This document shows positions 640 to 34,287 of a DNA stretch of 35,941 bases, in pieces. The stretch is from an uncultured Lachnospiraceae bacterium (GTDB lineage: Bacteria; Bacillota; Clostridia; Lachnospirales; Lachnospiraceae): NCBI GenBank assembly GCA_947626795.1, contig CANQTH010000024.1:1-35941 (forward strand). Direction: 5' to 3'. The position numbers and the translations under genes were made by a program. The notes beneath the pieces were generated by a model. It was not told the DNA's origin. It ran no database searches and saw nothing but the letters and a program-made list of their open reading frames with translations. Numbering within the stretch: position 1 is the stretch's first letter; each line of letters starts with the position of its first letter.

Positions 640-757
640 ACGTATTTCGGAAACACCGCACACATACATCGTCAGCGTAGCGAAAGCAGAAAACCGTGAA
701 TGGGAAAAGTATTGTTCCGCCTGGTCAAAGACGAAATGGGTGAAGACAAAAAAATAA
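640..757 (+). pseudogene. Remnant of an FN3-type surface-protein C terminus
   Basis: The last codons of the frame ending at 757 read SAWSKTKWVKTKK, the same as the end of the intact surface protein that stops at 3975. At DNA level 716-752 and 3931-3967 match with a single mismatch. The preceding residues (TYIVSVAKAENREWEKY) also resemble the last strands of that protein's FN3 domain. Base composition switches from AT-rich to GC-rich at about 610-640, so the frame 431-757 is a chimera of the broken upstream ORF and this tail. I infer that a paralogous surface gene once lay here and was mostly deleted. Confidence 0.6.
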
Positions 758-777
758 GCACAAAGGAGAAGAAGATC

Positions 778-3700
778 ATGTTAAAAAAGGCGCGAAACTA
801 TTTGGGATTCCTCGCCATGGCGCTGCTATTGGCACTCGCGGCGGGCGGTCCGCAGGAAAAGGCATACGCGGAAGCGGGCGGATATTCCATACAGGAGCTT
901 AGCGGCGATACGATCCGCTATTCTTCCGCGCGGACGCTGTGTCGGCAGTACCCGTGCGAGGAGCTGGGCGGGATCTATTTTTTGAACGGCACGAAGCTGG
1001 CTTTTTATTCCCTGTCCGGCCAGACGACCGTGGAAGCGGGGGAGTTCCCCGGGCTGGCGGACGTCTACGAGGAAGGCGGGACGCTCTACATTTTGGAAAA
1101 TACGGACGGCGGCGCGGTGGTGGAAGAGTATGCGCTGGCGGAGCAGAAGGTCGGGAAAACCGTTTCCCTGAGCCTGGAGCAGGCCGAGTATATCGGCGTT
1201 GACAGCCTGGGGCGTCTTTACATAGCGGCGGCGGATGGGCAGGGCCACAGCATCCACCTGCTAAATGCGGACGGCGCGGAGCTTTCGAGCGAGCAGCTAA
1301 AAAACGCTTCGTATGAATTTGTGGGGTTCGATTCCAAGACGGGGAATTTCTATTTCGAGGGATATATCAACTGGGTGTATTGGGGATACGACCACGATAT
1401 GCGCGCGGTGATGTGCGGGAATGTCGTGGGCGATCAGATCCAGGTCAGCGACAAATACATCAGCCTCCTGTATCAGATGTATTACAATGACCATCAGAAG
1501 ACGGCGGAGTTTTTTGCGGATCGTTATCTGGCGGTGCAGGCGTATACTAACAATTATTTTGAGGCTTATACGTCGCTTCTGGCGGTCGATTCCAACCGCT
1601 TTGACATATCCGGGACGTCGCTTCCCGCCGTCTTTAACCTGGAAAGGGCGACGGAATGGGACAGCGTCGGGATCGGGGCGCTGTACCGCGCCGCAAGCGA
1701 CAGCCTGATCGTCAGCGTCGGGGACGGCGCGCTTACGGAATATCAGATCAAGGACAGCAGCGTTCTGGCTGAATTTACGGCGCAGCATCCGATCTTTTCC
1801 CTGCTCTGGTACGGGGACAGCGTGGCCGCCATTGAAAAAGAGGGCGACGCGTTTTATCTGGAAATGATCCCCTGGAAGGCCTCTTCGTCTTTATCGCTGA
1901 GCGCGGAGAAGACGTCGCTTCTGGTCGGGGAAGAAGCGGAGATCCAGATCCTGTCGGATTCCATGCTGGACGAGGCCGCCGTATTTACAAGCAGCGACAG
2001 CAAGGTGGCTTCGGTGACGCAGGGCCGGAAGGTGACGGCGCTCAAAGCGGGGACGGCGGTCATTACGGCTTCCCTTCCGACAGGGGCGTCCGCGTCGCTT
2101 TCCTTCCAGGTGTCGGATAACCCGGCCATGAAGGCTCCGACGCTGGTCACGGAGGCGGGGAAAGGCGCGGCGGCGTCCAGGCGGAACCTGGGTCAGAACG
2201 ATTATACTGTGTGGTCGTACCCGATGCGGTCGTACCTTTACGAGGATGCGGACGGCTCCCTCGTCCGTGTCGAGGCGGCCGAGCCAAAGGTCCTCATCGA
2301 GAAGCTTGACAAAAGCAGCGGCGCGCTGCTCTCTTCTTCCACCGTGGAGATGGAGCTTCCGGTCTTTGGCGGATTTTATGCGGGAAGCGACGCCAACTAC
2401 CTGGTTTTCGGGCAGAACAATCCGAAAGAGGCGGATATCGAGGTCGTGCGCATTGTAAAATATTCCAGGCAATGGCAGCGTCTGGGGGTGGCGTCAGCCG
2501 TCGGCGCGAACACGTACATCCCCTTTGACGCGGGCAGCCTCCGGATGGCGGAGACGGAAAAGAGCCTGTATGTGCATACCTGCCATGAGATGTACGGGAC
2601 GGAAGACGGGCTGCACCATCAGGCCAACATGACGTTTGTCGTGGACAAGGCGACGATGGCGATGACGGATTCTTATACCGACGTGATGAATATCGGATAC
2701 GGCTATGTGAGCCATTCGTTCAATCAGTTCATCCAAACGGACGGGAAGACGGTCTACCGGGTGGATCACGGCGACGCGAACCCGAGGGGGATCGCCATTA
2801 CCGCCTGCAGCGTAGACGGGAAGATTACGGACGTTTCCTACAACGTGCCAATGGAGTTTGACGGTGGATCCGGGGAAAATTACACGGGCGCGTCGATCGG
2901 CGGGTTTGAGCTGTCGGAAAACCGCTGCCTGATCGTTGGGAACCAGGACGCAGGCGGGAAAAAGGGCGCGGCGCGGAACGTCTTTTTGGCCATTGCGGAC
3001 AAAGCGCTCAATCATGTCAATACGGTTTTCCTGAGCAATTATAGCGCGGGCGGGAGCCTCAGCGCGGGGACGCCGCAGCTTGTGAAGGTCAGCGGTACGC
3101 TGTTCCTTGTCTTGTGGACGGAAACGGATGACGGCAGCGGCGAGACGCGCGGCAGGATGGTGCTTGTGAACGAGGACGGGACGGTCTGCTCGGACGTCGT
3201 CACCACGGCGGAGTGCCTCTCCGACTGCCAGCCGATCCTCTGCAGCGACGGGAACGTCCGCTGGTATGCCTCCGACGGGAAGAAAACGTCGCTTTACGCG
3301 GTAAACCCGTACAAGCTGAAGGCCTATGACCATGCAAAGCATACATGGGCGAACGAAAAGGTGGTAAAAGCGAGCGTGTCCAAAAACGGGAGCATTGAGA
3401 AGACCTGCTCCAAATGCGGGGCGAAGAGCCGGACGGTGATCTACGCCGCCAAATACATCAAGCTCTCAAAAGCGACTTTCACATACAACGGGAAGACGCA
3501 AAAGCCGACCGTCACGCTCATGGACAGCAAGAAGAAAAAGCTGAAAAACGGCACGGATTACACGCTTACGTATTCCGGGGGATGCAAGGACGTCGGGAAG
3601 TATAAAGTGACGGCGGTCTTTAAGGGGAAGTATAAGGGGACGCACAGTTCCGTCATAACGATACGGCCAAAGGGGGTCGGGGTCTCGAAGATCGAGCCGG

Positions 3701-3975
3701 GCGCGACGAGTTTCCGCGTGAAATGGAAAAAGCAGACGGTCCAGACGAAAGGATATGAGCTGCAGTATTCCACGACCGGCAAGTTTTCCAAGAAAAATAC
3801 GAAGAGCGTGATGCTGAAAAATACGACCACGGCCAAGAAAGTGACGGGCGTGAAGCGGAACAAGAAATATTATGTGCGGATCCGGACTTACAAAGAGACG
3901 GCGGCAAATGGGAAAAAAGAAAAAATTTACTCCGCCTGGTCGAAGACGAAATGGGTGAAGACAAAGAAGAAATAG
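778..3975 (+). CDS. Secreted surface protein with Big2-like, Ig-like and FN3-type C-terminal domains
   Basis: 1065 residues. The start at 778 is chosen because AAAGGAGAAG precedes it and the protein then opens with a classic signal peptide (MLKKARNYLGFLAMALLLAL, likely cleavage near AYA-EA at about residue 30); an in-frame start at 700 would lie inside the upstream remnant. Order after the signal: a beta-rich, propeller-like region (about 35-365), a Big2-type Ig-like domain (about 370-447, SLLVGEEAEI...KVASVTQGRKVTALKAGTAVITA), a second beta-rich region (about 460-840), a CSKCG metal-like knuckle near 877, a lysine-rich MBG-like module (about 900-963), and a terminal FN3-like domain (about 970-1065). 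No LPXTG or membrane anchor is visible, so retention at the wall, if any, is by another route. It stands alone, with a terminator directly after it. Role is unknown; adhesion or wall association is inference from the domains. Confidence 0.85.
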   Translation: MLKKARNYLGFLAMALLLALAAGGPQEKAYAEAGGYSIQELSGDTIRYSSARTLCRQYPCEELGGIYFLNGTKLAFYSLSGQTTVEAGEFPGLADVYEEGGTLYILENTDGGAVVEEYALAEQKVGKTVSLSLEQAEYIGVDSLGRLYIAAADGQGHSIHLLNADGAELSSEQLKNASYEFVGFDSKTGNFYFEGYINWVYWGYDHDMRAVMCGNVVGDQIQVSDKYISLLYQMYYNDHQKTAEFFADRYLAVQAYTNNYFEAYTSLLAVDSNRFDISGTSLPAVFNLERATEWDSVGIGALYRAASDSLIVSVGDGALTEYQIKDSSVLAEFTAQHPIFSLLWYGDSVAAIEKEGDAFYLEMIPWKASSSLSLSAEKTSLLVGEEAEIQILSDSMLDEAAVFTSSDSKVASVTQGRKVTALKAGTAVITASLPTGASASLSFQVSDNPAMKAPTLVTEAGKGAAASRRNLGQNDYTVWSYPMRSYLYEDADGSLVRVEAAEPKVLIEKLDKSSGALLSSSTVEMELPVFGGFYAGSDANYLVFGQNNPKEADIEVVRIVKYSRQWQRLGVASAVGANTYIPFDAGSLRMAETEKSLYVHTCHEMYGTEDGLHHQANMTFVVDKATMAMTDSYTDVMNIGYGYVSHSFNQFIQTDGKTVYRVDHGDANPRGIAITACSVDGKITDVSYNVPMEFDGGSGENYTGASIGGFELSENRCLIVGNQDAGGKKGAARNVFLAIADKALNHVNTVFLSNYSAGGSLSAGTPQLVKVSGTLFLVLWTETDDGSGETRGRMVLVNEDGTVCSDVVTTAECLSDCQPILCSDGNVRWYASDGKKTSLYAVNPYKLKAYDHAKHTWANEKVVKASVSKNGSIEKTCSKCGAKSRTVIYAAKYIKLSKATFTYNGKTQKPTVTLMDSKKKKLKNGTDYTLTYSGGCKDVGKYKVTAVFKGKYKGTHSSVITIRPKGVGVSKIEPGATSFRVKWKKQTVQTKGYELQYSTTGKFSKKNTKSVMLKNTTTAKKVTGVKRNKKYYVRIRTYKETAANGKKEKIYSAWSKTKWVKTKKK

Positions 3976-5420: not shown

Positions 5421-5562
5421 GTAACAGTTCAGCCCGGGACTTTGCGCTTGCTGCAAAGTCCGCAAGAACGTGTAAATTTTGCCGAGTGGGAATCCGGCTC
5501 TTTGCCGAAGGCAAATTTGAAATGAGCCGGATTCCATAACTGTGAGGCCGAAGGCTGAACTG
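5421..5562. repeat. Structured inverted-repeat element, copy A
   Basis: A 142-bp element starting GTAACAGTTCAGCC and ending GGCTGAACTG; the last four bases of the right end seen in copy B are missing. Inside are the same hairpins as in copy B (GGACTTTGC/GCAAAGTCC and GAATCCGGCTC/GAGCCGGATTC with an inner TTTGCC/GGCAAA stem). It is about 90 percent identical by eye to 8944-9089. It lies 11 bp upstream of the -35 of the iscR promoter and fills most of the 311-bp gap between the flippase and iscR. Reading frames across it are not genes. Confidence 0.9.
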
Positions 5563-5573
5563 AAAAAATGCTC

Positions 5574-5602
5574 TTGACAGGGGGCTGAAATCGTGATAAG
5601 AT
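5574..5602 (+). promoter_or_regulatory. Sigma-A-type promoter of the isc operon
   Basis: TTGACA at 5574-5579, a 17-bp spacer, and TAAGAT at 5597-5602. Transcription should start near 5609, which excludes the in-frame TTG at 5607 as the iscR start and supports the one at 5655. Confidence 0.85.
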
Positions 5603-5614
5603 TCGTTTGGTTAA

Positions 5615-5638
5615 ATATCCGAGTAAAACACTAGGAAT
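5615..5638. promoter_or_regulatory. IscR/RrF2-type operator
   Basis: ATATCCGAGT-AAAA-CACTAGGAAT is an imperfect dyad that fits the type-1 IscR site pattern (ATAnYYGACTnnnnnnAGTCnnnTAT). It lies just downstream of the predicted transcription start and 17 bases before the iscR start codon, where a bound repressor would block transcription. Family knowledge predicts autorepression by the iron-sulfur-loaded regulator. Confidence 0.75.
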
Positions 5639-5654
5639 TGACAGGGGTGATATC

Positions 5655-6077
5655 TTGAAGCTATCGACAAAAGGAAGATACGGTCTGCGCGCCTTTATCG
5701 ATCTGGCGGTCTGCGCGGAGGAAGCCCCGGTTTCTTTGGCCAGCATCGCGCAGCGGCAGGAGATATCGGTGAGCTATTTAGAACAGCTTATGGCGAAGCT
5801 CAAGCGCGCCGGGCTGGTCGAGAGCGTCCGGGGCGTCAACGGCGGCTACCGCCTGGCGAAGCCGGCGGACGAGATCTCCGTGGGGGAAGCGCTGCGCGCG
5901 CTGGAAGGCGACATAACCCCGGTGGAATGCCCCGGGATCGGGAACGACCCGTCCGCGCAGTGCAGCAGTTCAGAGCAGTGCGTCAGCAAGATCGTATGGA
6001 AGCGCATCAACGACAGCATCAACAATACCGTGGACGGCATTTTCATCGGAGAGCTGGTGCGGGAAAGCAGAAAATAG
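5655..6077 (+). CDS. iscR: RrF2-family iron-sulfur-sensing transcription regulator (IscR-like)
   Basis: 140 residues, normal for the family. The start is TTG with AGGGGTGA 5 bases upstream, giving MKLSTKGRYGLRAFIDLA, the standard RrF2 opening. Residues about 5-60 form the winged helix (YGLRA, ISVSYLEQLMAKLKRAGLV, GVNGGYRLA). Three cysteines in the pattern C-x10-C-x5-C (ECPGIGNDPSAQCSSSEQC) near residues 90-107 fit a [2Fe-2S] ligand set. It leads the operon with iscS, iscU and mnmA, and has an IscR-type dyad in its leader, so it most likely represses the operon when clusters are plentiful. CymR-type regulators are related, but they usually lack these cysteines. Confidence 0.9.
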   Translation: MKLSTKGRYGLRAFIDLAVCAEEAPVSLASIAQRQEISVSYLEQLMAKLKRAGLVESVRGVNGGYRLAKPADEISVGEALRALEGDITPVECPGIGNDPSAQCSSSEQCVSKIVWKRINDSINNTVDGIFIGELVRESRK

Positions 6078-6136
6078 CAACAGGGACGCCGGGACGCCCG
6101 GGGCTTGGGCAAAAGCGGCGGACGCAGGAGGGAAAT

Positions 6137-7315
6137 ATGGGAAAAATGATCTATTTGGACAATGCGGCGACGACGCGGACCGCGCCGGAAGTAGTCGACG
6201 CGATGCTTCCGTTCTTTTCGGAATTTTATGGGAACGCGTCGACGGTATATGAATTTGGCGGGAAGAGCAAGGAGGCGATCTCTAAGGCGAGGGAGATCAT
6301 CGCGCGGGCGATCGGCGCGAAGGAAAACGAGATTTATTTTACCGCCGGGGGCAGCGAGTCGGACAACTGGGCGCTCAAGGCGACGGCGGAGGCCTGCAAG
6401 GGCAAGGGCAACCACATCATCACGAGCAAGATCGAGCATCACGCCGTTTTGCATACCTGCCAGTGGCTGGAGCAGCACGGGTTTGAGGTGACATATCTGG
6501 ACGTCGACGAGTTCGGCACGGTCAAGCTGGAAGAGCTGAAGAAGGCGATCCGCCCCACGACCATCCTGATCTCTATCATGTTCGCGAACAATGAGATCGG
6601 GACGATCGAGCCGATCGAGGAGATCGGGAAGATCGCGAAGGAGCATGGGATCCTCTTCCATACGGACGCGGTGCAGGCGTTCGGGCAGGTTCCCATCGAC
6701 GTGGACCGGATGGGCATCGACATGATGAGCGCGAGCGGCCATAAGCTCAACGGGCCGAAGGGGATCGGATTTTTGTACATCCGAAAAGGCGTGAAGATCC
6801 GCTCCTTTATCCATGGCGGCGCGCAGGAGCGTAAGCGCCGCGCGGGGACGGAGAACGTGCCTGGGATCGTGGGCCTTGGGAAGGCCACGGAGCTTGCCAT
6901 TGCGAACATGGAGGAGCGCACGGCCAGGGAGCGGGAGCTGCGCGACCGCCTGATCAGCCGGATGTTAAAGGAAGTCCCGTTCACCCGGGTGAACGGCCAT
7001 CGGGAGAACCGCCTGCCGAACAACGCGAATTTCTGCTTCCAGTTCGTGGAGGGGGAATCTTTGCTGATCATGCTGGACATGAAGGGCATCTGCGGCTCGT
7101 CCGGGTCGGCCTGCACGTCCGGCTCGTTGGATCCCTCCCATGTGCTTTTGGCGATCGGGCTGCCGCATGAGATCGCGCACGGGTCGCTGCGCTTGACGCT
7201 GGGGGCGGACACGACCGAGCAGGATATCGACGACACCGTGGACGCGGTAAAGGAGATTGTGGCGCAGCTTCGGGAGATGTCGCCGTTGTACGAGGATTAT
7301 ATGAAAAAAGCGTAA
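6137..7315 (+). CDS. iscS: Cysteine desulfurase (NifS/IscS type)
   Basis: 392 residues. PLP-dependent removal of sulfur from cysteine, giving alanine and an enzyme persulfide that feeds iron-sulfur clusters and thio-tRNA. MIYLDNAATT is the usual N terminus. The PLP lysine is K203 in SGHKLNGPKG, with the supporting ETES/GGSESDN and HH motifs upstream. The active-site cysteine is C326 in GSSGSACTSG, the longer-loop arrangement of the NifS/IscS subgroup. The start at 6137 has AGGAGGG four bases upstream; the longer open frame runs back into iscR and is discarded. 59 bases separate it from iscR and 54 from iscU. It could equally be called nifS, as there are no nitrogen-fixation genes here. Confidence 0.95.
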   Translation: MGKMIYLDNAATTRTAPEVVDAMLPFFSEFYGNASTVYEFGGKSKEAISKAREIIARAIGAKENEIYFTAGGSESDNWALKATAEACKGKGNHIITSKIEHHAVLHTCQWLEQHGFEVTYLDVDEFGTVKLEELKKAIRPTTILISIMFANNEIGTIEPIEEIGKIAKEHGILFHTDAVQAFGQVPIDVDRMGIDMMSASGHKLNGPKGIGFLYIRKGVKIRSFIHGGAQERKRRAGTENVPGIVGLGKATELAIANMEERTARERELRDRLISRMLKEVPFTRVNGHRENRLPNNANFCFQFVEGESLLIMLDMKGICGSSGSACTSGSLDPSHVLLAIGLPHEIAHGSLRLTLGADTTEQDIDDTVDAVKEIVAQLREMSPLYEDYMKKA

Positions 7316-7369
7316 CGGGGCGGAACGGTCACAAAAAGCAGGCCGATGACGGCAGGGAGGAAAAAAGGA

Positions 7370-7807
7370 ATGTATAGTGAAAAAGTAATGGACCATTTTA
7401 AGAACCCGCGGAACATGGGGGAGATTGAGAACGCGAGCGGCGTAGGCACGGTAGGGAACGCGAAGTGCGGCGACATCATGCGTATTTTCCTGGACATTGA
7501 CGACGACGGGATCATAAAGGACGTGAAGTTCAAGACGTTTGGCTGCGGCGCGGCCGTCGCGACCAGTTCGATGGCTACGGAGCTGGTAAAGGGGAAGAAC
7601 ATACAGGAGGCGCTGCAGGTGACGAACAAGGCCGTCATGGAAGCGTTGGACGGGCTTCCCCCGGTAAAAGTGCATTGCTCCCTTCTCGCGGAGGAGGCCA
7701 TCCACGCGGCGCTCTGGGATTACGCCGAGAAAAAGGGGATCCGGATCGAGGGCCTGGAAAAGCCGAAGAACGACATCAGCGAGGAAGAAGAGGAAGAGGA
7801 CTATTAA
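7370..7807 (+). CDS. iscU: Iron-sulfur cluster scaffold protein (NifU/IscU N-terminal type)
   Basis: 145 residues. It accepts sulfur from the desulfurase next door and builds clusters for transfer to apoproteins. The three scaffold cysteines are present: NAKCGD, FGCGAAVA and VHCS. MYSEKVMDHFKNPRNMG is the standard opening, preceded by GGGAGGAAAAAAGG; the ATG at 7346 is less well placed. The C terminus ends in an acidic run (SEEEEEEDY), longer than usual but not disruptive. It is the single-domain form, without the NifU ferredoxin or Nfu domains. Confidence 0.95.
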   Translation: MYSEKVMDHFKNPRNMGEIENASGVGTVGNAKCGDIMRIFLDIDDDGIIKDVKFKTFGCGAAVATSSMATELVKGKNIQEALQVTNKAVMEALDGLPPVKVHCSLLAEEAIHAALWDYAEKKGIRIEGLEKPKNDISEEEEEEDY

Positions 7808-7859
7808 GGAAAAAGAGGCGGCCGCGGGACGATGGGCGGCCGCGTGAGAACAAGCGCAT

Positions 7860-8933
7860 ATGGAAAAGAAAAAAGTTGTGGTGGGGATGTCCGGCGGCGT
7901 GGACTCTTCCGTGGCGGCCTGGCTGCTGAAGGAAGAGGGCTACGACGTCATCGGCGTCACGATGCAGATCTGGCAGGATGAGGAGGAAGCGGCCCTGGAG
8001 GAGAACGGGGGCTGCTGCGGCCTGTCCGCCGTGGAGGATGCGAGGCGTGTGGCGCAGATGTTGGATATCCCGTATTATGTTATGAATTTCAAATCGGAAT
8101 TTCGGGCAAACGTCATTGATTATTTCGTGGCGGAGTACCGAAGGGGGCGCACGCCGAACCCCTGCATCGCCTGCAACCGCTATGTGAAGTGGGAGTCGCT
8201 TTTGCGCCGCGCGCTGGGCATCGGGGCGGAATATATCGCGACCGGGCATTACGCTAAGGTCGCGCGGCTGCCGAACGGGCGGTACGCGCTGCGCAAGTCC
8301 GCCGACGGGACGAAGGACCAGACGTACGCCCTCTACAACCTGACGCAGGAGCAGCTTTCCCGCACGCTGATGCCCTTGGGAGGCCATACGAAGGAGGAAG
8401 TCCGCGCGATCGCGGGGGAACTCGGGCTTTTGACGGCGCGCAAGCCGGACAGCCAGGAGATCTGCTTTATCCCGGATCACGATTACGCGGGATTCATTGA
8501 GCGGGAGGCCGGGGAAGTCCCGCCGCCCGGGAATTTTGTCTCGACGGACGGGGAGATCCTCGGCAGGCACAAGGGGATCGTCCAGTATACGGTCGGGCAG
8601 AGGAAGGGGCTTGGGATCGCCCTTGGCAGCCCGGCGTTCGTGGTGCGGATCTGCCCGGAGCGCAACGAGGTCGTGCTGGGCGGCAAGGACGACGTGTTGG
8701 GGGATTTTCTTCGCGCGGGCCAGGTGAATTTCATGGCGGTCCCGGACTTGGAAGGGGAGATGGAGGCGACGGCGAAGATCCGCTACAACCACGGCGGCGC
8801 GCCCTGCACGATTCGCAAAGAAGGGGAGAAGATCGCCTGCCGCTTCCATGAGCCGGTGCGAGCCATAACGCCGGGTCAGGCGGCCGTGTTTTACGACGGG
8901 GACACGGTTTTAGGGGGCGGCGTGATCGAATGA
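7860..8933 (+). CDS. mnmA: tRNA-specific 2-thiouridylase
   Basis: 357 residues, as expected. It adenylates and thiolates the wobble uridine U34 of Glu, Gln and Lys tRNAs with sulfur relayed from the desulfurase. The PP-loop is GMSGGVDSS at the N terminus. The two catalytic cysteines are C102 (NPCIACN) and C202 (SQEICFIPD). GHYA and KDQTYAL follow the family pattern. It is last in the isc operon, 52 bases after iscU, which gives it a direct sulfur donor. No clear Shine-Dalgarno is seen; the spacer instead holds two GCGGCCGC palindromes (7815-7841) that could pair, so translation may be weak or coupled. Confidence 0.95.
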   Translation: MEKKKVVVGMSGGVDSSVAAWLLKEEGYDVIGVTMQIWQDEEEAALEENGGCCGLSAVEDARRVAQMLDIPYYVMNFKSEFRANVIDYFVAEYRRGRTPNPCIACNRYVKWESLLRRALGIGAEYIATGHYAKVARLPNGRYALRKSADGTKDQTYALYNLTQEQLSRTLMPLGGHTKEEVRAIAGELGLLTARKPDSQEICFIPDHDYAGFIEREAGEVPPPGNFVSTDGEILGRHKGIVQYTVGQRKGLGIALGSPAFVVRICPERNEVVLGGKDDVLGDFLRAGQVNFMAVPDLEGEMEATAKIRYNHGGAPCTIRKEGEKIACRFHEPVRAITPGQAAVFYDGDTVLGGGVIE

Positions 8934-8943
8934 GGGATGACTG

Positions 8944-9089
8944 GTAACAGTTCAGCCCAGGACTTTGCACTTGCTGCAAAGTCCGTAAGAACGTAAAAAT
9001 TTTGCCGAGTGGGAATCCGGCTCTTTGCCGAAGGCAAACTTGGAATGAGCCGGATTCTGTAACTGTGAGGCCGAAGGCTGAACTGTTAC
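8944..9089. repeat. Structured inverted-repeat element, copy B (best preserved)
   Basis: 146 bp with perfect 14-bp terminal inverted repeats: GTAACAGTTCAGCC (8944-8957) and GGCTGAACTGTTAC (9076-9089). Inside, GGACTTTGC/GCAAAGTCC (8960-8968 and 8976-8984) makes a 9-bp hairpin, and GAATCCGGCTC/GAGCCGGATTC (9013-9023 and 9047-9057) an 11-bp hairpin with a nested TTTGCC/GGCAAA stem. The whole could fold as a branched structure on either strand. No transposase gene is present. It starts 10 bases after mnmA and ends 11 bases before the promoter of the HD-GYP gene, just as copy A does at iscR. Confidence 0.92.
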
Positions 9090-10325: not shown

Positions 10326-10458
10326 GTAACGATTCAGTTCCTTCATAGTTACGATGCGAAAATGCATGAAAGATCGCTTCGCGATGGCATTTTTGCACCA
10401 TTGGATCATGTTCTTACGGTCTTAGCGGCAAGCGCTTCGGCCTGTTCTGAACAGTTAC
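10326..10458. repeat. Inverted-repeat element variant, copy C
   Basis: Left end GTAACGATTCAG (10326-10337) and right end CTGAACAGTTAC (10447-10458) pair at 10 of 12 positions and resemble the ends of copies A and B. The interior differs: GCGAAAATGC/GCATTTTTGC flanks an ATCGC-TTC-GCGAT hairpin. It fills the gap between the HD-GYP and GGDEF genes, so it may be transcribed with them. Confidence 0.65.
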
Positions 10459-13132: not shown

Positions 13133-13170
13133 AAAGCAATTGCCCGGCCAGGGGCGGATCCCGAGACAGG

Positions 13171-13193
13171 GAAGCCGGAGGCTGGGCTGTTAC
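13171..13193. repeat. Decayed right end of the inverted-repeat element
   Basis: GAAGCCGGAGGCTGGGCTGTTAC resembles the right end of copy B (GAGGCCGAAGGCTGAACTGTTAC) with a few changes. No left end is recognisable nearby. Confidence 0.4.
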
Positions 13194-17328: not shown

Positions 17329-17987
17329 ATGAACGGCGTGTCCGCGAGGCTGGTGACGATGAAGATGACATAGCTGGAAAGCGCGATGGAGATCAGTGTG
17401 GCCGCATCATGGACGCCCCAGAACGCGCCCCAGGTGAACAGGACCGCGTTCAAGAGCTGGGAGATCAGCGTGGAGCCGTTGTTCCGCAGCCACAGGAATC
17501 TCTGGCGGCTGCCGAACCGTTTGTCTGTCCAGTCCCACCACTTATGATAGAGCCATACGTCGAAGAGCTGGACGATGACGTAGACGATGATCCCAACGGC
17601 CAGAAGCCGGGGCGTGTTGGAAAAGACCGTCCGGATGGCGGGCGACGCGAAGTCGTTCTCGTTCGGCGCGTAAAAAAGCCAGGACTGGCTGATGAGCAGG
17701 AAAGAGACGGAAGTCGCGATCCCCAGGTACACGGCTTTCTGCGCGGCCTGCTTCCCGTAAAGCTCGCTTAAAATGTCCGTGACCAGGAACGTGGACGCGA
17801 ACAGGATGTTCCCGAGCGTCATTTCCATGCCGAAAGCGTCCACGATGATCAGAACCTCGATGTTCGCGGCGATCGTGGCGACCGCCGTCCACAGGTAAAG
17901 CCCCTGTTCCCGGAACAGGCGGAACAGGATGAGGACGGCGGAAAACGTAAGGATCAAAGATAAGATTAAAAGGGTTTCATTGCGCAT
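17280..17987 (-). CDS. yhhQ: Queuosine-precursor transporter (YhhQ/VUT family)
   Basis: 235 residues, six or so membrane segments. The start at 17987 gives MRNETLLILSLILTFSAVL and has AGGAGG 9 bases upstream; the longer frame would run into the leader. Family features: NILFASTFLVTDILSELYGKQ, VSFLLISQSWLFY, and LLNAVLFTWGAFWG. The family imports preQ1/preQ0 (or queuine in some bacteria) across the membrane for tRNA queuosine. A preQ1-I riboswitch with a terminator lies in its leader, which strongly supports this job and predicts shut-off when preQ1 is plentiful. It converges with the methyltransferase gene and is divergent from murE. Confidence 0.93.
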   Translation of the reverse strand: MRNETLLILSLILTFSAVLILFRLFREQGLYLWTAVATIAANIEVLIIVDAFGMEMTLGNILFASTFLVTDILSELYGKQAAQKAVYLGIATSVSFLLISQSWLFYAPNENDFASPAIRTVFSNTPRLLAVGIIVYVIVQLFDVWLYHKWWDWTDKRFGSRQRFLWLRNNGSTLISQLLNAVLFTWGAFWGVHDAATLISIALSSYVIFIVTSLADTPFIYLARRLHHGMEAGND

Positions 17988-24323: not shown

Positions 24324-25628
24324 ATGGGAAAGGTGAATCTTCGGGAACTGGTGTTGGACGCGCTGCTGGCGGTGACGCGGGACGGCGAGTACAGCCATGT
24401 CGCCATCCGCGCCATCCTGGACAAGCATCAGTATTTGGAAAAGCAGGAGCGCAGCTTCATCAAGCGGGTGTGCGAGGGGACGCTGGAGCATATGATCTGG
24501 ATCGACTATGTGCTGGATCAGTTCTCCAAAGTGAAGGCAAAGCGCATGAAGCCCGTGATCCGCTGCATTTTAAGGAGCGGCGTCTATGAGCTGAGATACA
24601 TGGACTCCATCCCGCCGTCCGCTACGTGCGACGAGGCCGTGAAGCTGGCGAAAAAGCGGGGATTCGGCAATCTTTCGGGGTTCGTGAACGGGGTGCTGCG
24701 CAGCGTCAGCCGCAATCTGGGCGGTCTTGCGCTGCCGAGCAGGGAAGAGAACCTGAACGCGTATCTGTCCGTCCGTTACTCGATGCCGGAATGGATCTTA
24801 GAGATGTGGGAAAGCTCTTACCCGGTCGGGCAGGTCGAGGGCTTCCTGCAGGCGTTTTTGGAAGAGGCGCCGACGTCCATCCGCGTCAATCCGGCGCGGA
24901 CGGGGAAGGAAGAGCTGAAACGGGAGCTGGAGGAGATGCGTATCCGGGTGTCCGAGCCGGAAGGGCTGGAAAACGCGCTTCTGATCTCCGGGTATGATTC
25001 CCTGGGGCGGATCCCCGCGTTCCGGGAAGGAAAATTTTACGTGCAGGACGTAAGCTCCATGCACGCCGCCCTGTGGGCGGAACCGAAGAAGGGGGCTTAC
25101 GTCATGGACGTATGCGCCGCGCCCGGCGGGAAGAGCCTGCATATCGCGGAACTGATGGAAGGCACGGGGCTTGTGGAGGCGCGGGATTTAACGGAGCGCA
25201 AGGTGTCGCTCATCCGGGAAAATATCCGCCGCTGCCGGATGGAGAACATTTCCGCAGTCGTGGCGGACGCGCGCGTGCTGGACGAGAGCAGGGTCGGGAA
25301 GGCCGATCTTGTGATGGCCGACCTGCCGTGTTCCGGGCTTGGCGTCCTGGGGAAAAAAGCGGATATCAAATATCGGATGACGAAAGAAGCCTGCGGGGAG
25401 CTGGCCGCCCTGCAGCGGGAGATCCTGCATACGGTGCAGCAATATGTGAAGCCGGGCGGCGTGTTGTTGTACAGCACTTGCACGATCAACGCTTCCGAGA
25501 ACGAGGAGAACGTCGCGTGGTTTTTGCGGGAGCATCCGCAGTTCATATTAGAGAGGCAGCGGCAGATCTTCCCGCAGGCCGGGAAGCAGGACGGATTTTT
25601 CCTGGCGCGGCTGACACGCCGGGCGTAG
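24324..25628 (+). CDS. rsmB: 16S rRNA (cytosine-967-C5) methyltransferase
   Basis: 434 residues. N-terminal NusB-like RNA-binding domain (about 1-140, SFIKRVCEGTLEHMIWIDYVL), then a Rossmann methyltransferase domain with AdoMet motif DVCAAPGGKSLHIAELM, ADLPCSGLGVLGKKADIKY (PCSG) and the catalytic cysteine in YSTCTINASENEENV. The start at 24324 follows AAAGGAAACGG; a longer frame overlaps yugP. All motifs are present. It follows the YugP-like gene by 43 bases; the downstream spacer is a degenerate repeat. Confidence 0.94.
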   Translation: MGKVNLRELVLDALLAVTRDGEYSHVAIRAILDKHQYLEKQERSFIKRVCEGTLEHMIWIDYVLDQFSKVKAKRMKPVIRCILRSGVYELRYMDSIPPSATCDEAVKLAKKRGFGNLSGFVNGVLRSVSRNLGGLALPSREENLNAYLSVRYSMPEWILEMWESSYPVGQVEGFLQAFLEEAPTSIRVNPARTGKEELKRELEEMRIRVSEPEGLENALLISGYDSLGRIPAFREGKFYVQDVSSMHAALWAEPKKGAYVMDVCAAPGGKSLHIAELMEGTGLVEARDLTERKVSLIRENIRRCRMENISAVVADARVLDESRVGKADLVMADLPCSGLGVLGKKADIKYRMTKEACGELAALQREILHTVQQYVKPGGVLLYSTCTINASENEENVAWFLREHPQFILERQRQIFPQAGKQDGFFLARLTRRA

Positions 25629-25633
25629 GCGGG

Positions 25634-25865
25634 GCGTCTGGAAGGGCGCAGACGGAGCGGCCAGGAAGGCGCACCGGGCAGCGCGTAAGCAAGGCATCTG
25701 GGAAGGTGCGCTAGGCGTTAAGCGAGGCGATCGGAAGGACGCAGGTGGAGCATCCGGGAAGGCGCGCCGGGCGTAAGCGGGACGACCGGGAAGGCATGGG
25801 AGGAGCGATCGGGAAGGCGCGCCGGGCAGCGCGTAAGTGAAGCGTCTGGGAAGGGCGCGGTAAGA
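25634..25865. repeat. Degenerate GC-rich tandem repeat between rsmB and rlmN
   Basis: Eight units share a core like GCGTCTGGGAAGGCGCGCC, many followed by GGGCAGCGCGTAAGC; the spacing varies from about 22 to 36 bp. No start, ribosome binding site or terminator is visible. The array fills the whole gap between the two genes. Confidence 0.75.
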
Positions 25866-30952: not shown

Positions 30953-31603
30953 ATGAATTGTTTATCGCCATCGATTTTAGCTGCTGATTTTTCGCGCTTG
31001 GGGGAGCAGGTCGCGCGCATTGACGAGGCGGGCGCCCAGTATGTGCATATCGACGTTATGGATGGGATGTTTGTGCCGAGCATTTCTTTCGGGATGCCGC
31101 TGATCCGGTCCATCCGGCCCTGCACGGAACGGATCTTCGACGTGCATCTGATGATCGAGGAGCCGTCGCGCTACATAAAGGAATTTGTGGACTGCGGCGC
31201 GGATATCATCACGGTGCATGCGGAGAGCTGCACGCATCTTGACCGGACGATCGAGGAGATCCGCGGCCTGGGCGTGCTGGCGTCCGTGGCCTTGAACCCG
31301 GCGACGGACTTAGGCGTCCTGGAATATGTGCTGCCCAAGCTGGATATGGTATTGATCATGACGGTGAACCCCGGGTTCGGCGGGCAGAAGTTCATCCCGT
31401 ATTCCCTGGACAAGATCCGCGCGCTGCGGCGCATGATCGAGAAGCGCGGGCTGAAGACGGACATCGAGGTGGACGGCGGCATCACGCTTTCCAACGTGAG
31501 GGAGATCCTGGACGCGGGGGCGAACGTCATCGTCTCCGGGAGCGCGGTATTCCGCGGGGACATCGGGCAGAACGTGAGGGACTTCCTGCAGATCATGAAG
31601 TAG
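30953..31603 (+). CDS. rpe: Ribulose-phosphate 3-epimerase
   Basis: 216 residues, TIM barrel. Interconverts ribulose 5-phosphate and xylulose 5-phosphate. Metal and catalytic residues: SPSILAADFSRLG, YVHIDVMDGMFVPSISFG, DVHLMIEEP, TVHAES, MTVNPGFGGQKFI and EVDGGI. GAGGAGAGG precedes the start, 15 bases after rsgA. The sequence following its stop repeats its own 3' end. Confidence 0.96.
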   Translation: MNCLSPSILAADFSRLGEQVARIDEAGAQYVHIDVMDGMFVPSISFGMPLIRSIRPCTERIFDVHLMIEEPSRYIKEFVDCGADIITVHAESCTHLDRTIEEIRGLGVLASVALNPATDLGVLEYVLPKLDMVLIMTVNPGFGGQKFIPYSLDKIRALRRMIEKRGLKTDIEVDGGITLSNVREILDAGANVIVSGSAVFRGDIGQNVRDFLQIMK

Positions 31604-31618
31604 GGAAGCTGTTCGCGT

Positions 31619-31718
31619 TTTATGAAGATCATAAAGCGGGGAAGCCGTTCGCGAGCGCGTATCCCAAGGCGGCTTTCCTGCCGCGCTTTATGAAGATCAT
31701 AAAGCGGGGAAGCCGTTC
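31619..31718. repeat. Repeated copies of the rpe 3' end
   Basis: A 32-bp sequence containing GAAGATCATAAAGCGGGGAA occurs at 31619-31650 and 31687-31718 (68 bp apart). The actual end of rpe, at about 31588-31616, (GCAGATCATGAAGTAGGGAA) is a recognisable third, older copy. Both later copies are past the stop and code for nothing. Confidence 0.7.
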
Positions 31719-31720
31719 AT

Positions 31721-31813
31721 AATCATTCAGCCGGGGACTTTGCGCCTGCTGCAAAGTCCGTGGGGATGCGGAGATTTGGACAGGAAGGGGAAGCCGCAAG
31801 GCTGAGCTGTCAC
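31721..31813. repeat. Inverted-repeat element, internally deleted copy D
   Basis: CATTCAGCC followed by the ACTTTGC-x8-GCAAAGT hairpin (31737-31757) matches the left half of copies A and B; GAAGCCGCAAGGCTGAGCTG with TCAC matches the right end. The middle hairpin is lost. It lies in the 305-bp gap between rpe and thiN together with the rpe-end repeats. Confidence 0.75.
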
Positions 31814-31815
31814 AG

Positions 31816-31851
31816 CCGTTCAGCCAGGAGGGAATATGGAAGGCTGAACGG
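31816..31851. repeat. Minimal inverted repeat of the same ends
   Basis: CCGTTCAGCC (31816-31825) and GGCTGAACGG (31842-31851) are perfect reverse complements 16 bases apart and share the TTCAGCC/GGCTGAA core of the element ends. It may be a solo pair of ends or an element with its interior lost. Confidence 0.6.
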
Positions 31852-31908
31852 TCGCGGCAAATTAAGAAGAGAACAGGCGGAAGGCGCGGAAAGGCGGGAG
31901 GAGAGAGG

Positions 31909-34251: not shown

Positions 34252-34287
34252 ATTCCGTAACTGTGAAGCCGAAGGCTGAACTATTAC
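34252..34287. repeat. Right-end fragment of the inverted-repeat element (E)
   Basis: ATTCCGTAACTGTGAAGCCG and GAAGGCTGAACTATTAC match the last 37 bases of copy B with a few substitutions. The left part is missing; AT-rich sequence replaces it. It lies just past the stop of the second MATE gene. Confidence 0.7.

Follow-up and report, generated by a model that had tools for sequence, protein, structure and literature searches.

A family of MITEs with GTAAC-type terminal inverted repeats and a compensated fold in a Lachnospiraceae genome

The window, that is, the whole stretch of 35,941 nucleotides analysed here, is contig C24 in a draft genome that totals 2.89 Mb over 144 contigs. Copy B (8944-9089, forward strand) is a full-length repeat element with perfect 14-bp terminal inverted repeats and, at 165.4 bits, the best covariance model score in a 781-kb sample made up of the window and 40 other stretches. 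Copy A (5421-5566, forward strand; 141.0 bits) is near full length, matching model positions 1-145, and has lost the right terminal GTTAC. Compared over 142 nt (5421-5562 against 8944-9085) the two copies are 94% identical, which agrees with the near-identity claimed for them in a preliminary description of this DNA. The end motif given there for both copies is true of B only, because the right end of A, GGCTGAACTGAAAA, is three mismatches away from the 14-bp end; A keeps the left end only. An 8-bp duplication is absent at either copy, the flanks agreeing at 0 of 8 positions at A and at 2 of 8 at B. In B, all on the forward strand, the 5' terminal inverted repeat (8944-8957), an exact match to GTAACAGTTCAGCC, is one arm of a terminal stem, P1. 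Downstream lie hairpin 1, or P2 (8960-8984), which folds with the loop CTTGC and has compensating changes in 6 of 9 pairs, and hairpin 2, or P3 (9011-9058), which folds with an inner GAA-loop hairpin and an asymmetric 3' bulge and has changes on both sides in 8 of its 11 outer pairs and in 3 of its 6 inner ones. The 3' fold-back, P4 (9059-9089), sets an internal GTAAC copy opposite the 3' terminal repeat, and this unit is also found alone as solo elements. The fold of B outdoes those of shuffled sequences both as RNA (z -6.90) and as DNA (z -7.65), and B has room for 48 codons at most.

With up to three mismatches allowed, the window matches the 14-mer end at 13 places, against a mean of 1.76 and a maximum of 8 in 100 shuffles, and the further traces proposed in the preliminary description have proved to be of several kinds. 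The sequence at 10326-10458 (reverse strand) is a full-length member of a 133-bp subfamily that has the same ends and other stems. Its standing as a variant is upheld by the model (87.5 bits) and by a 7/8 duplication in its flanks, ATAAAACC/ATAAAATC, but not by its own DNA fold, which shows no gain over shuffles (z 0.12). The trace at 13171-13193 is indeed a repeat fragment, here placed at 13163-13193 (forward strand); it is a degenerate 3' fold-back fragment of direct repeat family D2 (72%), had no covariance model match in the search of the 781-kb sample and was found as a direct repeat only. The sequences at 31721-31813 and 31816-31851 do belong to the family and are not two traces but a single degenerate element, 31719-31855 (forward strand; 40.2 bits). 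The last trace, 34252-34287, is a solo 31-bp fold-back unit at 34257-34287 (forward strand) with a 7/8 duplication in its flanks, AAAATTCC/AAAATCCC. At the gathering score the window had no match in Rfam. Three other groups of repeats were seen in the window. A 75-nt repeat (679-753 and 3894-3968; 75% alike) lies at either end of a 1091-aa open frame at 700-3975. Direct repeats of 54 and 90 nt that are 76-79% alike (25617-25854) close one open frame and precede the next, with no relation to the MITEs seen. Three 37-nt direct repeats, two of them 97% alike, occupy 31578-31718, immediately before the degenerate element.

The high copy number that had been predicted from these traces is borne out in the whole genome, where the 20-mer end has 157 matches at up to three mismatches and a reversed control has none. 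In the 781-kb sample the covariance model gave 80 matches at E <= 0.01, corresponding to about 75 places because five places matched on both strands, and the same sample holds 226 ends at up to three mismatches. A model search of the whole genome gave at least 109 matches, and the true copy count is probably higher. Across the genus 25 of 29 genomes matched the model, several with a single weak match; there were 88 matches in G704, 58 in G700, 35 in G716, 31 in G715 and 29 in G714, and between 0 and 8 in the other 23 besides the source genome. These uneven counts look like bursts in single lineages. In a DNA search in which few candidates were scored per genome, 20 of 299 genomes of the bacterial family matched, the source included, and in a model search with strict filters the two matching genomes among 398 of the phylum were the source genome and one of the same family. 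A hairpin pattern matched at least 100 stretches of named genomes, whose titles read Lachnospiraceae, or Blautia, Butyrivibrio, Roseburia, Eubacterium, Acetatifactor, Hominisplanchenecus, Mediterraneibacter and others, and in some cases no more than Clostridia bacterium or Bacterium D16-51. Lachnospiraceae bacterium MA2020 and Butyrivibrio hungatei DSM 14810, both cultured, are among them. The CASWRE records in this set probably represent the G225 genome, and JAETSX probably overlaps G700 in the same way, so that the sets are not wholly independent. The family had no match in the plasmids, phages and viral contigs searched.

The flanks of the elements indicate how they came to be dispersed. 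Among all uncut model matches of at least 70 bits, with duplication lengths of 4-12 bp compared, an 8-bp target-site duplication (at most one mismatch) was found at 23 of 51 source-genome copies, where shuffled partners lead one to expect 0.56, and at 30 of 45 copies of other genomes (0.80 expected). At the other lengths the largest counts were at 4 bp (5/51 with 3.12 expected, and 3/45 with 4.34 expected), and there were small excesses at 6 bp (3/51), 7 bp (2/51) and 9 bp (2/45). The target-site duplications for which the preliminary description proposed a search are thus present and are exactly 8 bp long. About half of the source-genome copies, including A and B, have no duplication. Elements are nested in L120 and L127, where excising the inner element together with one 8-bp copy rebuilds the outer end, and in G225 seven near-identical 236-bp elements occupy different sites, each flanked by a duplication of 7/8 or 8/8. 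All duplication-bearing elements are gene-free and 24-298 bp long, the 298-bp one being composite. A comparison of G715 with G716 over seven aligned pairs of stretches (97.5-99.9% identical), two of which stop at an element, gave 8 of 8 elements common to both and no filled/empty pair; two more elements had no partner stretch. Tandem copies, some directly abutting, occur at L066 15026-15317, L050 17714-17951 and L089 18895-19215, and within L050 there is an array (17758-17951) of units of about 59 bp that contain no more than the 5' end and hairpin 1. Several duplications elsewhere fall within the end of another copy, hinting that element ends themselves serve as targets.

Since their flanks carry 8-bp target-site duplications, the repeats are a family of MITEs with GTAAC-type terminal inverted repeats. 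They have the terminal inverted repeats, the duplication of fixed length, the short gene-free body and the high copy number of such elements. The preliminary description, which had offered a MITE or a REP/BIME-like repeat, is therefore confirmed in part: the MITE reading is sustained by the many copies, the exact 8-bp duplications and the compensating stem changes described below, and the REP/BIME reading is contradicted. That alternative would have the copies spread by a single-strand Y1 transposase, and the copies are indeed short, palindromic, numerous and mostly intergenic. To our knowledge REPs leave no target-site duplication. Because the copies here have paired terminal inverted repeats and exact 8-bp duplications, we reject this origin as extremely improbable. 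REP/BIME elements and REPINs resemble the family as short palindromes in many copies and differ in their end tags, REPs being described in PMC3733652 as 20-40-bp palindromes tagged GTAG or CGTC.

The most satisfactory explanation, which we consider very probable, is that a DDE transposase acting in trans moves these gene-free MITEs, recognising GTWACNGTTCA-like ends and leaving an 8-bp duplication; the copies would then be parasitic. We infer the transposase and its class from the duplication and the ends only. The full-length transposon with the same ends that the preliminary description suggested seeking was not found in the stretches searched, which were draft genomes read in part. In the 781-kb sample and other stretches the search was for duplication-flanked pairs of ends separated by as much as 6-8 kb. 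It also took in the surroundings of the G225 ends and, in 100 named stretches, the DNA within 7 kb of 102 places that have the hairpin. Duplications were found at 37 of those 102 places, with element lengths of 129-236 bp. One end pair 3.3 kb apart, in L319, has poor ends and was judged to be a chance occurrence. An IS66-type transposase as the mover is suggested by two of 30 IS66 loci of the bacterial family, which have GTAACCGTCAAATAA- or GTAAGCGTCAAATAA-type ends and exact 8-bp duplications. IS66 insertion sequences are thus like the MITEs in their GTAAC or GTAAG ends and duplication length, but they carry transposase genes, their inner end sequence is different, and the agreement with the MITE end is limited to GTAAC and the next GT. 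Moreover, PF03050 has no match in the source draft genome, there is no IS66 match in G225, which has 36 copies, and IS66 is absent from 9 of 19 copy-bearing genomes in a set that excludes the copy-rich G700, G704 and G714-G716. The GTAA end and 8-bp duplication of an IS66-derived MITE are present but the IS66 transposase in the host is not, and we regard this mover as unlikely. An IS256-type transposase also leaves 8 bp, was matched in six of seven genomes searched (above cut-off in five) and is present with an 8-bp duplication in L313. It is a highly unlikely candidate, however, because none was found in the source genome, the ends read in L313 (GATAGCGTCAAG) and L333 (GAGGCTGTAAAA) differ from the MITE ends, and the G225 copy, which is cut by a contig end, has no matching end just past its stop. 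The L313 element (1870-3225) has three identical copies in G127, with ends GATAGCGTCAAG/GGTAGTGTAAAA and an 8-bp duplication in the one copy read.

The fold-back of the MITEs also occurs by itself. Solo units with duplications are 27-31 bp long (24-35 bp at widest), and among fold-back units, totals that include the 3' ends of longer elements, a duplication was found at 4 of 37 in the source genome (0.15 expected), at 6 of 37 in the G225 loci (0.19 expected) and at 0 of 48 in L213-L292 and L360-L375. The simplest account is that the 27-31-bp units are most likely deletion products. A deletion between the 5' end and the internal GTAAC-type copy, both of which are able to pair with the 3' end, would leave a solo unit. 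Both of these copies contain GTAACTGT in G225, where such a deletion would yield an exact solo unit with the duplication kept. The other account is that solo units would transpose on their own.

The interior of the elements keeps its helices while the letters change, across subfamilies and across genera. In a set of 22 elements hand-picked for diversity (A1) the architecture is the terminal stem P1, P2 with CTTGC as its commonest loop, a GTAAGAAC-like linker, P3 with its inner hairpin and asymmetric 3' bulge, and the 3' fold-back P4. P4 shares its 3' arm with P1, so that the fold-back competes with the terminal stem. The check for compensating stem changes proposed in the preliminary description gave a positive result: both sides have changed in 23 of 40 pairs, whereas shuffles that ignore relatedness give 13.0 (sd 2.0). 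In the same 22 elements pairing fell from 88.1% to 22.5-42.2% when the partner was slid by 1-3 columns. In a freer test, in which only the loop and the flanking motifs were fixed, 28 distinct 6-base arm pairs had a mean of 4.32 Watson-Crick pairs, against a mean of 2.43 and a maximum of 3.07 in 1000 shuffles. P4 has 93.8% of its cells paired and a covariation score of 0.339 against 0.149; four of its pairs changed on both sides against 2.7, a number reached in 42 of 500 shuffles. The internal copy in P4 has GA where the terminal repeat has TC in 18 of 22 elements. As DNA, five of six elements fold better than their shuffles (z -6.3 to -8.6), the exception being 10326-10458.

Changes of this kind may have causes other than selection on the fold. 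Palindrome correction by template switching would match the arms of a hairpin and leave its loops, and it is a possible, though rather doubtful, source of the compensating changes: the loop and linker motifs are kept across subfamilies too, and correction alone does not explain that. The fold might also be kept by the host, as a regulatory RNA whose movement is secondary, and for this speak the covariation and the orientation of the copies, 60 of 83 co-directed contexts being sense and 23 antisense when pooled (p 6e-5). Between co-directed genes, called by codon usage and not by a standard gene finder, 31 copies of the 781-kb sample are sense and 7 antisense (57 of 80 matches used; 6 overlapped genes and 2 lay at edges), and in the other genomes the numbers are 24 and 12 (p 0.065). 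In the further set, which comprises these and additional source-genome copies, 73 of 84 matches were used, 10 overlapping genes and 8 lying at edges. The excess of sense copies may be due to selection against the antisense ones or to an insertion preference. Several upstream frames stop four bases into the element (distance -4), where GTAAC provides TAA. Against a regulatory RNA, the further source-genome copies alone are unbiased (5 sense, 4 antisense), the copies are degenerate and patchy, and G-U is no commoner than A-C in P2 and P3. The counts of G-U to A-C are 3 to 3 in P2 and 12 to 17 in P3 of A1, and 11 to 9 in P2 and 20 to 13 in P3 of a second set, A2 (best 60 of 80 rows); P1 has 64 to 34 in A2, which was fitted to the model. 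Near-equal numbers in P2 and P3 are as for copies decaying one by one. We therefore consider a host-kept regulatory RNA quite improbable. The role as transcribed RNA structure that the preliminary description allowed is possible, the commoner sense orientation agreeing with it and the inner stems, with G-U no higher than A-C, not. Because single copies look decayed, we infer that the fold is of use to the active element and not to the host.

Two described families resemble the MITEs reported here. BOX of Streptococcus pneumoniae, as described in PMC3049150, is similarly modular, structured and present in many intergenic copies, and is regarded there as a probable parasite mobilised in trans; by that description it differs in its boxA, boxB and boxC modules and their sequences. 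QMITE2 of Coxiella burnetii, according to PMC10969869, is likewise a MITE; it has direct repeats of 7-9 bp and a transcript that folds strongly, and differs by description in its 23-29-bp ends and 113-145-bp core. The open-access literature searched for the element, its ends or similar MITEs gave no account of this family, and an earlier one in subscription papers is possible. For a repeat family that is widespread in an abundant family of gut bacteria, the present analysis provides the sequence of the ends, the length of the duplication, the fold and a covariance model, and it raises the testable question of why a MITE conserves fold rather than sequence.

The Rfam model GA-cis (RF02987) is a lead, because structural details are shared. 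The whole model was matched by the 133-bp element L042 (E 4.7e-4) at 26.9 bits, the best score obtained and below the gathering score of 34.7 bits. L042 and GA-cis have in common an outer stem, a CGAAG hairpin, an asymmetric bulge and a fold-back with G-A opposite G-A. Four of five singly tested elements had no match to GA-cis, nor had 16 whole loci under stricter filters. GA-cis was reportedly described from Coprococcus eutactus, a species that the taxonomy places in Lachnospiraceae. We speculate, as an idea that we think has a rather small chance of being right, that the element is a mobile folded nucleic acid whose movement or persistence needs the four-helix fold, with the 3' terminal repeat switching between the 5' end and the internal copy, and that GA-cis may represent a relative's 3' half. 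In that case what Rfam lists as a candidate structured RNA would belong to a transposable element. Motif-discovery pipelines may call parts of this repeat family regulatory RNAs. In L252 a 6S RNA and a T-box leader (2979-3159 and 6820-7052), both above the gathering score, lie near an element.
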